In this document: positions 58,224-62,770 of the stretch, in pieces
How the letters are laid out: each line of letters opens with the position of its first letter
How positions within the stretch are numbered: position 1 is the first letter of the stretch
Source of the DNA: Pelagibacteraceae bacterium AG-337-I02
GTDB lineage: Bacteria; Pseudomonadota; Alphaproteobacteria; HIMB59; GCA-002718135
DNA: 64,000 nt
Assembly: GCA_003282155.1 (NCBI GenBank)
Contig: QBZY01000001.1
Coordinates: 236,312 to 300,311, forward strand
Reading direction: 5' to 3'
Made by a program: the position numbers and the translations under genes
The notes under the pieces: model-generated
Seen by the model: the letters and a program-made list of their open reading frames with translations, nothing else
What the model was told of the DNA's origin: nothing
Databases searched by the model: none

Positions 58224-59414
58224 GTGACTGAATATAAAGTATTAAAAAGATCTTTTTATATCGCTTACTCAGTAGGCGCACTAAATATTTTTCTATTAAC
58301 CGTTTATATGGTTCATGTTCCACTTTTACTAGATATACTAAAAATTACAAAAGTAGAATTCTCATTTGGATTAACATTATTTGGTTTATGCAGTATAATT
58401 TCTAATCAAGCAACTACACTTTTTTTGACTCCAAAGATTGGAACAAAAAACTGTATTGTCATTTCAAGAACTATTATATCTTTTTTACCTCTAATAGTTT
58501 TTTTTTCAGAAAGTTATTTTGTTTTCTTAATTGTATCATCTATTTGGGGTTTAGCCATGGGTATACAGGTACCAAATGTTTTGTTGCAAGTTAGTATTAT
58601 TGAAAAAGAAACTTCTGAAATTTTAAACCCTATATTTAAATCAGCATTTTCAATAGGTGTAATATGCGGTTCAATAACTGCCAGTATTGCACTTGGGTAT
58701 AATATTAATCCCATTAATATATTTATTTTTTTTGGCTTTATTTTTATCCTTTCAGCGATAACAATTTATTTTTTGGGATTACCAAGGAAATATGACATTG
58801 TAAACAAAGGTTCAAAATTTACTCTACCAAGTAAAGGTGTTTTTATATTTGGACTCATAAATATGCTTATCTTTGCTTCCATGGGAATAATTGCACAATG
58901 GTCATCATTGTGGCTGCTTAATGATCTTAACGCAGCTATTTTTATGGCCGGCTCAATAGTACTTTTTTTTAATATTGGAGGAATAATTAGCAATTTTTTG
59001 GCATCAAATCTTATCAATCTGTTTAATGAAAAAGTTGTAGGCCCTTACTTTTCCATAATAGGATCAATAATTCTGATAGTCAGTATTACAACAATGAACT
59101 TATATATAATTCTTTTAGCTATGATAATTTTTGGATTTTTTACATCAAATTTATTACCTATAGTAATTAGATTAGCTGTTAAAATCTCTAAAGAGCCTAT
59201 GCCTAAGACTATCTCTCATATAACTAGCATAGGTCAAGCAGGAGCTTTATTTGGTCCAGCAATTGTTGGTTTTTCTGCATCAATCTTTGGATTAACTTTT
59301 AATATGTATGCACTAGGTTTTATTTTTTTAGGTATTTCGTTTTTATTATTAACGGCTATAAAAAATAATACAGTGGTAGGAGTAGAGGGAATCGAACCCA
59401 CACCACCGAAGTGA
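58224..59414 (+). CDS. MFS transporter, paralog 2; C-terminus runs into tRNA-Leu remnant
   Basis: 396 aa; shared ILNPIFKS.F..G, AGALFGPAIVGFSA..FGLTFNMYALG; ends VVGVEGIEPTPPK, the antisense reading of a tRNA-Leu 3' end. Confidence 0.85.
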   Translation: MTEYKVLKRSFYIAYSVGALNIFLLTVYMVHVPLLLDILKITKVEFSFGLTLFGLCSIISNQATTLFLTPKIGTKNCIVISRTIISFLPLIVFFSESYFVFLIVSSIWGLAMGIQVPNVLLQVSIIEKETSEILNPIFKSAFSIGVICGSITASIALGYNINPINIFIFFGFIFILSAITIYFLGLPRKYDIVNKGSKFTLPSKGVFIFGLINMLIFASMGIIAQWSSLWLLNDLNAAIFMAGSIVLFFNIGGIISNFLASNLINLFNEKVVGPYFSIIGSIILIVSITTMNLYIILLAMIIFGFFTSNLLPIVIRLAVKISKEPMPKTISHITSIGQAGALFGPAIVGFSASIFGLTFNMYALGFIFLGISFLLLTAIKNNTVVGVEGIEPTPPK

Positions 59415-59429
59415 CCGGATTTTGAATAC
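59374..59429 (-). pseudogene. tRNA-Leu 3' half truncated at the anticodon loop
   Basis: Reverse complement ATTCAAAATCCGGTCACTTCGGTGGTGTGGGTTCGATTCCCTCTACTCCTACCA; no matching D-arm or 5' acceptor strand next to it. Confidence 0.8.
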
Positions 59430-59507
59430 AACGAGTACAGATTTTGAGTACCCTCAGTCTGCAAAACCCCTAGAGTTTCCCTTGTTTCTACTGCTCTCTT
59501 TTACCTC

Positions 59508-59783
59508 TCATTTTAGTGTACGACTTGTATACGACTTCTGTTCATTGATTAATAGTGATTTCTGCAAATCATCAATCTGAAATCTTATGAACGAGAAAAT
59601 ACTACCTAACACTTCGTTTTTCAATACTTCATCAGTATCAACATTTTGACCATGTAAACCAGTCTGAATGAAATGCCCCAGAACTGCACCATAATAGTCA
59701 TTAGATTTCAGACCATTTGCGTGAGTTAGAGAACAAACCCAAATAGACAATCCAAAGACTAAGAATAAGAATACCTTAATCAT
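59508..59783 (-). CDS. small secreted protein of the element, unknown function
   Basis: 91 aa; MIKVFLFLVFGLSIWVCSLTHA signal peptide; start overlaps stop of the serine recombinase gene. Confidence 0.6.
   Translation of the reverse strand: MIKVFLFLVFGLSIWVCSLTHANGLKSNDYYGAVLGHFIQTGLHGQNVDTDEVLKNEVLGSIFSFIRFQIDDLQKSLLINEQKSYTSRTLK
59511..59523. repeat. 13-bp inverted repeat, left copy TTTTAGTGTACGA
   Basis: Exact reverse complement of 60533-60545. Confidence 0.85.
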
Positions 59784-60548: not shown

Positions 60549-60636
60549 CCCTAAGTATGCGTAGTTTTCCGCTAGTATACGACTAAATCCCCCAGATTGC
60601 GTAAATCGTACACAAGAATTACCCTCAGTTTGCGTA
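60549..60636. repeat. Three iteron-like 15-bp direct repeats, consensus CCCYMAGWWTGCGTA
   Basis: 60549-60563 CCCTAAGTATGCGTA, 60589-60603 CCCCCAGATTGCGTA, 60622-60636 CCCTCAGTTTGCGTA; degenerate copy at 59451-59465. Confidence 0.75.
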
Positions 60637-60799: not shown

Positions 60800-60916
60800 A
60801 TGACAGAGAAACAACAAATAGAGAATTTGCTTAAACAGATTGAAAGACAACCTTCTGCTGAACTCAAATTCAAAACACTTATTCAGATTGTGAGAATGAT
60901 TATCAAACTCCTATGA
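60800..60916 (+). CDS. 38-aa small ORF, ATGA-coupled to next gene
   Basis: MTEKQQIENLLKQIERQPSAELKFKTLIQIVRMIIKLL; TGA overlaps next ATG. Confidence 0.5.
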   Translation: MTEKQQIENLLKQIERQPSAELKFKTLIQIVRMIIKLL

Positions 60917-61521
60917 CCAGAAACTTCAAACATTTCCTTGATAAGAAATCCCACAATCTGATGAAGTTGATGAAACAATATTCAGAGAGAAGTGAGTTAG
61001 TCGATTTCTTAGATGATGCTGACTTTAATTATCAGATTACCATTCCATGTCATCACATGAATTATACTTCTGACACTTATGAGAAAAAGATTAAAGACTT
61101 CGTATCTCTCCTAGAAAAATTAATCTTCACTAGAAAAGAATTGAAACGAATTGATAAGAAATCTAAGAAACGAATTTATCAAATCCAAAGATATGCAACC
61201 TATGAAAATAATTCTCATGTTCACATTTTAATTGATAGACCAGATTGCAAGAAGATAAGAGAACTTGATAATGATGAAGTTGATGATTTCATCAAGACCA
61301 AAGTAATTAAAGTTTTACAAAAGTTGAGAATGTTTAATCTCAAACAGATTGACCCAACATTATCCAAGTTCTTCAAAACGATTAAGAATACGACAGAGAA
61401 ATTTATTTGTTTGAATTACAATACCAAAGAATACTCAAACAATATTAGACGATATAAGAATAACGATAAGTTATTCAGTACAATTGATTTCAGTAATTTA
61501 TATGTAAGACCTGCTCTTTGA
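60913..61521 (+). CDS. possible HUH/Rep-like protein
   Basis: 202 aa; YQITIPCHH (motif I-like), NNSHVHILIDRP (HUH-like), LNYNTKEY (YxxK-like). Confidence 0.4.
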   Translation: MTRNFKHFLDKKSHNLMKLMKQYSERSELVDFLDDADFNYQITIPCHHMNYTSDTYEKKIKDFVSLLEKLIFTRKELKRIDKKSKKRIYQIQRYATYENNSHVHILIDRPDCKKIRELDNDEVDDFIKTKVIKVLQKLRMFNLKQIDPTLSKFFKTIKNTTEKFICLNYNTKEYSNNIRRYKNNDKLFSTIDFSNLYVRPAL

Positions 61522-61586: not shown

Positions 61587-61629
61587 GACAATGTTAGATA
61601 GTTCTAACCTTGATTAGAACTCTATTGTC
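61587..61629 (+). promoter_or_regulatory. Stem-loop just upstream of the next gene
   Basis: GACAAT-gttagat-AGTTCTAA-ccttga-TTAGAACT-ct-ATTGTC. Confidence 0.65.
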
Positions 61630-61645
61630 CAAAGAAAGTAAAAGA

Positions 61646-62134
61646 ATGTTTAGACAACAATTAGATACATTATCTCAGAGTAAGAAAAGACAAGAACAAC
61701 GAGTAAGATTGAATGAGAGAATAAACCAAATCCATAATAACCAGACCTACAACCAATTACCTACTAAAGAAGTAGTTGATGTAGTGAACAAAGTTTCTTC
61801 TGAGTTTGATACTTTGAAATCTCAGAATTTGACTGAAATTAGACGATTTCTGAACATCTCAACACAGATTGCTCAGTTAAATAAATCCAAACAATCCTTA
61901 TCCAATGTGAATACAAAATATAACCAATTAAAATCCTCAATATCCAGTATCGACCAGAATGATAGTGCTCAACAAATACTCAAAAAGATGTCTAACGCCA
62001 TTTTATTATTATCAGATATGTTGATGTCCTCTACTGCACTAAGTAGAAGTAATACCATATCATCTGTTTCCAATAGTATTTTGACTAGAGATGTTGCAAA
62101 GAAATTTGACCAATTAACCAAGAAAAGAAGATAA
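61646..62134 (+). CDS. coiled-coil hypothetical protein of the element
   Basis: Q/K/S-rich coiled-coil-like ORF; longer TTG ORF from 61610 would overlap the stem-loop. Confidence 0.6.
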   Translation: MFRQQLDTLSQSKKRQEQRVRLNERINQIHNNQTYNQLPTKEVVDVVNKVSSEFDTLKSQNLTEIRRFLNISTQIAQLNKSKQSLSNVNTKYNQLKSSISSIDQNDSAQQILKKMSNAILLLSDMLMSSTALSRSNTISSVSNSILTRDVAKKFDQLTKKRR

Positions 62135-62343: not shown

Positions 62344-62386
62344 AAGTGAGTATCATTTTCTAGTCTCCCTAGTTTGATACTCACTT
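62344..62386. terminator. Strong hairpin after the element operon
   Basis: 12-bp stem AAGTGAGTATCA / TGATACTCACTT; 19-nt loop containing CTAG twice. Confidence 0.55.
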
Positions 62387-62683
62387 TAGACTTTTATCTA
62401 AAATATGTTTCACTTGATATTTTGATTTAAACGAACTCTCAATAATGAAATTCTGAAATTAAGTGTCATACATCAAAACTCAAAAATAAACCTCTCATAA
62501 GTAATCTATTACGATTTAGATACTTCGCCTTACAAAGTACCCCCCGTCAAAACTGAACGACCTTTAAATAAAAAAGAATTATTATTTTTTAAATCTATAA
62601 TCAGTTTCTAAAGTTGTTAGAGATATACTAAAAGTGTTTAGTATCTTTTTTTGTAAATTTTTTTTTGAGAATTTTTTTACTTC

Positions 62684-62770
62684 TGGTAGCGATGGTGGGA
62701 CTCGAACCCACACGCCATTGCTGACAACGGATTTTGAATCCGTCTTGTCTACCAATTCCAACACATCGCC
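62684..62770 (-). tRNA. tRNA-Leu(CAA), CCA encoded
   Basis: GGCGATGTGTTGGAATTGGTAGACAAGACGGATTCAAAATCCGTTGTCAGCAATGGCGTGTGGGTTCGAGTCCCACCATCGCTACCA; loop TTCAAAA; long variable arm. Confidence 0.94.

Follow-up and report, generated by a model that had tools for sequence, protein, structure and literature searches.

An integrative element of about 4.8 kb that very probably replaces the tRNA-Leu(CAA) gene it splits, and its orphan protein with HUH-like motifs

The 202-aa open reading frame (ORF) considered here is held within a single integrative element of about 4.8 kb, which extends from position 59427 to about 64228 on the scale of the window (the whole stretch of 64,000 nucleotides that was analysed). 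This element very probably uses tRNA-dependent integration, in which the host gene that is entered is lost and a complete tRNA brought in by the element takes its place. By gene content the element is not a temperate phage, with no virion, packaging or other phage structural genes recognised among its ORFs in Pfam and PHROG. The context provided by the element is more informative than the 202-aa protein itself, for which the motif trio and the surroundings point to a probable role as an HUH-like initiator of replication or transfer. Evenly balanced, in our estimate, is the complete proposal that this is a minimal (~4.8 kb) non-phage element with tRNA-dependent integration, whose host depends on a tRNA from another class and whose 202-aa protein founds a new HUH family and drives replication or transfer. 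The features of the element and its borders are collected in Table 1.

Table 1. Features of the element and of the host tRNA gene at its borders, in window coordinates unless stated otherwise
Feature	Position	Strand	Remarks
Displaced 3' half of host tRNA-Leu(CAA)	59374..59427	-	core ATTCAAAATC at 59418-59427
attP arm-like CTCTAGGGGTTTT	59463..59480		AACACTAGAGTTTT, inverted, at about 64188-64204 towards the opposite end
91-aa ORF, signal-like N-terminus	59508..59783	-	start overlaps resolvase stop; no Pfam or PHROG family
CGTACAC, five copies (59516, 60534, 60607, 64099, 64145)	59516..59522	-	5 found vs 0.2 expected
Small serine recombinase (resolvase/invertase family), 233 aa	59780..60481	-	PF00239 (3.4e-25), PHROG 95/125, NCBIfam
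Iteron-like repeats CCCTCAGTTTGCGTA, three copies (60549, 60589, 60622)	60549..60636	+	between divergent operons
38-aa ORF	60801..60916	+	stop overlaps start of 202-aa ORF, ATGA at 60913-60916
202-aa orphan ORF with HUH-like motif trio (HH47-48, HxH 102-104, Y169xxK172)	60913..61521	+	candidate replication/mobilization initiator
Imperfect hairpin, CCTTGA loop, without T run	61587..61629	+	3' of 202-aa ORF
174-aa ORF (or about 162 aa from ATG at 61646)	61610..62134	+	no family in Pfam, PHROG or NCBIfam
Probable ribbon-helix-helix DNA-binding protein, 62 aa	62144..62332	+	weak repressor/RelB-like matches
Complete element-borne tRNA-Leu(CAA)	62684..62770	-	between integrase and cargo
Tyrosine integrase, 429 aa	62799..64000, gene on to about 64088 (L002 4111-5400)	-	PF00589, PHROG 1
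Matching 5' half of host tRNA-Leu(CAA)	64219-64259 (L002 5531-5571)		beyond window end

The borders of the element can be read directly from the sequence. The host tRNA-Leu(CAA) gene is cut at its anticodon loop, and joining its two halves reproduces the intact tRNA-Leu of the sister genome G078 without a mismatch over 85 nt. No more than the 10-bp core ATTCAAAATC is shared at either border; beyond it the sequence diverges at once on each side. ARAGORN found no tRNA at either junction, and the host tRNA is rebuilt at neither. The host flanks match the two sides of this tRNA locus in genome G074 at 96% identity and are therefore regarded as native; in G074, other insertions occupy the site. CGTACAC, present at both ends of the element and in its centre, links the end with the integrase to the opposite one as parts of one element. 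After excision, the circle would present the core flanked by the inverted arms CTCTAGGGGTTTT ... AACACTAGAGTTTT.

The complete tRNA-Leu(CAA) carried by the element looks functional, with an Rfam score of 56.6 bits vs 56.8 bits for a sister host tRNA. Its identity to the host type is about 75%, whereas tRNAs from genomes of other classes in the phylum reach 84% and several phage tRNAs about 80%; the element-borne tRNA is therefore foreign. It is also the only full tRNA-Leu(CAA) found in the assembly, which is 79% complete (1.45 Mb in 40 contigs, 31% GC). The genome belongs to an order represented by two families among the genomes searched, and it resembles the marine HIMB59/AEGEAN-169 order (PMC10734472), to which it is tentatively assigned. 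In a small sample, TTG accounts for 17% of leucines in five element genes vs 8% in four host genes.

Within the complete tRNA there is a further copy of the core ATTCAAAATC, and sister genomes commonly carry elements with 5' tRNA fragments at this locus. Both observations would suit a different history, in which the 4.8 kb consists of two tandem elements, one with the integrase that restored the 5' half of the tRNA and one with the 202-aa ORF that restored the 3' half, instead of a single element with a cargo tRNA. However, in the complete tRNA the two strands of the acceptor stem pair with each other (6 Watson-Crick pairs plus 1 G-U of 7), whereas either of its halves combined with the other half from the host yields only 2/7 Watson-Crick pairs, and each single step of a tandem history would thus leave a broken tRNA. 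Furthermore, the inverted attP arms and CGTACAC are found at the two outer ends and are absent at the internal tRNA. The tandem arrangement was rejected on the pairing of the tRNA stems, and we regard it as very improbable. TRNA-dependent integration of one element is favoured instead, because the host halves join exactly, 10 bp are shared at the borders and a full tRNA lies inside.

Integrases normally restore the tRNA gene that they enter (PMC8371274; PMC4383910). Tyrosine integrases that do otherwise were described in 2024 for temperate phages under the term tRNA-dependent lysogeny, which was demonstrated experimentally in mycobacteriophages and involves a core of ~10 bp, no reconstruction of the host gene and a phage-encoded tRNA of matching isotype that is required for survival; the authors asked how widespread the strategy is elsewhere (PMC10865867). 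The element described here presents the same combination, namely a tyrosine integrase with a core of ~10 bp inside a host tRNA gene, junctions that reconstruct no host tRNA, and a tRNA of the same isotype within the element. Phage Gaia is listed as using tRNA-dependent lysogeny at tRNA-Leu-CAA with an 8-bp core (PMC10865867), and a similar tRNA substitution has been reported for phage-related sequences in Sinorhizobium (PMC11476347). The tRNA-replacing architecture is thus like that of the temperate actinobacteriophages Fionnbharth, LeBron and Gaia (PMC10865867), here as judged from sequence alone, and unlike them the element is only ~4.8 kb long, has no recognisable phage gene and resides in what is probably a streamlined marine alphaproteobacterial host. 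What appears to be new is that this architecture, known before in temperate phages, occurs in a minimal element whose genes include none recognisable as phage genes.

We propose that the integrase would use the 10-bp core to recombine attP with the host tRNA-Leu(CAA) gene at its anticodon loop, thereby destroying the host gene, and that the complete tRNA-Leu(CAA) of the element would substitute for it, so that cells keeping the integrated element stay viable. If the element works in this manner, a core tRNA gene has become an addiction lock through a tiny element, which put a gene from a distant lineage in its place. Tycheposons and other tRNA-bordered islands of marine bacteria (PMC10872708) are similar in combining a tyrosine recombinase with a tRNA gene at a variable locus in a streamlined marine bacterium. 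They differ in being cargo islands bordered by a tRNA, in contrast to the tiny element with a complete foreign tRNA found here. Charybdis elements (PMC12324425), which have archaeal hosts and a different gene set, were dropped from the comparison.

The integrase is divergent, with 22-31% identity to its nearest relatives in Alphaproteobacteria and plasmids, and tblastn of the phage collection with this protein gave no match. The serine recombinase shows 28-33% identity to phage recombinases and is possibly a multimer resolvase. The adjoining 91-aa ORF may encode an exported element protein, as suggested by its signal-peptide-like start. On the other strand, the 174-aa ORF is probably a coiled coil, judging from its composition, and the weak matches of the 62-aa protein are to PHROG 876 (E 0.0014) and NF048017 (E 0.0067). 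The ribbon-helix-helix gene is followed at 62350-62390 by a strong inverted repeat, GTGAGTATCA ... TGATACTCAC, which is the lowest-energy stretch of the element and likely the operon terminator. Matches to Nip7, Suc_Fer-like and potA were discarded, the scores being at chance level.

The 202-aa ORF itself is a real gene. Its open frame of 219 codons exceeds every frame obtained when the element was shuffled 300 times (longest frame 89 codons on average, 165 at most). Its start overlaps the stop of the 38-aa ORF in a manner that resembles a translationally coupled operon. The encoded protein is very basic and Lys/Asn-rich. The sequence-only reading had proposed an HUH-type Rep or relaxase on the basis of HH, HxH and YxxK motifs in the order expected for HUH enzymes, and these were confirmed at the positions listed in Table 1. 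Residues IPC-H47-H48 follow a predicted strand, H102-V-H104-ILID places the HxH (HUH) motif on a hydrophobic strand, and Y169-N-T-K172 forms a downstream Tyr motif as in Rep and Y1 enzymes, with Y169 as the candidate catalytic Tyr. Likeness to HUH endonucleases (Rep, Y1 transposase, relaxase) thus extends to a hydrophobic strand, an HxH on a hydrophobic strand and a downstream YxxK, with about 65-67 residues from HxH to Tyr. Among shuffles of the composition of the protein, 0.11% contain HxH plus three hydrophobic residues followed 20-110 residues on by YxxK, and of the 301 different ORFs with 100 aa or more that the window and related loci contain, the 202-aa ORF alone shows it; the pattern was defined after the protein had been seen, so both figures are optimistic and serve as support rather than proof.

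The protein has no detectable sequence homology to HUH endonucleases. Searches against Pfam, PHROG and NCBIfam returned no HUH Rep or relaxase profile even at E up to 10, the PDB sequence search gave no relative, and a search of the element's own genome with PF23343 (REP_ORF2-G2P) gave no match at E up to 1. The profile and PDB searches agree with the earlier impression that no family is recognisable over the rest of the protein. The assignment to an HUH-type Rep or relaxase therefore stands in part: the motif order and the mobile-element context fit, and a profile match to any HUH family is lacking. Homologs above chance were absent from the 163 genomes of its own order, the 387 of its class and the 349 of its phylum, from the 51 genomes of the family with the best tRNA match, from phages and plasmids searched by tblastn, and from the contigs of the GTDB genome collection. 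The weak class-level matches (E 0.006-0.1) cover short local segments, and roughly half of them run across stop codons.

Single-sequence AlphaFold models reached a pLDDT of 38 for the full 202-aa protein and 42 for residues 33-202, which is too low for an HUH palm to be either recognised or dismissed. Strands and helices follow an order compatible with such a palm in each of the two low-confidence models. Foldseek gave no match below E 0.09 with these poor models, and a Y1 transposase (2ec2) and viral Reps appeared at an insignificant E of 0.3-1.3; these Foldseek results were not counted as evidence.

The lack of any HUH profile match and of homologs, the orphan status, the very basic Lys/Asn-rich composition and the after-the-fact definition of the motif pattern would all be expected if the protein were some other small DNA- or RNA-binding or regulatory protein whose His and Tyr motifs are coincidental, with replication left to the host or a helper. 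We hold this to be a serious though less probable account. It must contend with the rarity of a motif trio in the right order and hydrophobic context, as quantified above, and with an element context that predicts such an enzyme. The HUH reading is favoured because the motif trio is rare by chance and correctly ordered, because a coupled operon start is combined with iteron-like repeats upstream, and because Pfam, PHROG and NCBIfam revealed no other replication candidate among the element ORFs. The repeat CCCTCAGTTTGCGTA has a fourth, degenerate copy at 59451, giving 4 copies vs 0.03 expected, mainly upstream of the 202-aa ORF. The HUH reading is weakened by the missing profile matches and homologs noted above, by the poor models and by the fact that a nick site was not found in the element: CTTGAT in the loop region of the hairpin was rejected as a phiX174/pC194-type site, being one of nine copies in the element. 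The hairpin at 61587-61629 had been noted previously and is indeed present (-7.7 kcal/mol as DNA, z -2.66). Having no T run, it is ruled out as an intrinsic terminator, and it is a candidate origin or operator.

Rolling-circle initiators are known to act as relaxases in some integrative and mobilizable elements (IMEs), and IMEs with Rep-like relaxases are common in streptococci (PMC5704250). Since such initiator-like relaxases are common in these elements, a Rep or relaxase role would be natural for the 202-aa protein. The present element resembles these IMEs (PMC5704250) in being small, in lacking conjugation machinery and in combining an integrase, a candidate HUH Rep/relaxase and an accessory DNA-binding protein. 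It is unlike them in that its 202-aa protein matches neither Rep_trans, Rep_2, Viral_Rep nor another HUH profile and in that it carries a replacement tRNA. With moderate confidence, we view it as an integrative plasmid-like or mobilizable element, with the 202-aa protein most likely its HUH-type initiator (Rep or Rep-like relaxase). Following excision, the protein may nick one strand at the element origin (the iteron region or the hairpin at 61587-61629) via Y169, with H102 and H104 holding the metal. Such a nick would set off transfer of the element or its rolling-circle replication, whose multimers the serine recombinase could resolve. If the HUH assignment is true, the orphan protein is a small HUH enzyme missed by current profiles.

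A more specific version of this proposal, which overlaps with an HUH initiator and does not exclude it, holds that the protein is the relaxase of a minimal IME and not a maintenance Rep: it would nick an oriT, a helper conjugation system would carry the element, and the ribbon-helix-helix protein would be a relaxosome accessory. The small ribbon-helix-helix protein encoded in the same gene cluster is in line with this, as is the frequency of Rep-like relaxases among streptococcal IMEs (PMC5704250). Against it, no coupling protein or helper was identified, and no oriT was identified in the element. The Tyr of the 202-aa protein lies C-terminal to HxH, as in Reps, whereas in canonical relaxases it is usually N-terminal to HxH. 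A dedicated relaxase is thus considered unlikely, and the broader assignment as an HUH-type initiator is retained.

The tRNA-Leu(CAA) locus is an insertion hot spot in the sister genomes (loci L047-L062; e.g., L048 1270-3230, L053 1660-2640 and L049 1340-2890). In these loci an intact tRNA is followed by one or two short cassettes of 0.7-3 kb, most with one or few genes and mostly without an integrase, each closed by either a second full tRNA or a displaced 5' tRNA fragment. In Islander such 5' fragments are rare, numbering 159 vs 3760 3' fragments (PMC4383910). In one of the sister loci (L058 2375-2731, minus strand), a remnant similar to a tyrosine integrase N-terminus adjoins a displaced tRNA fragment.
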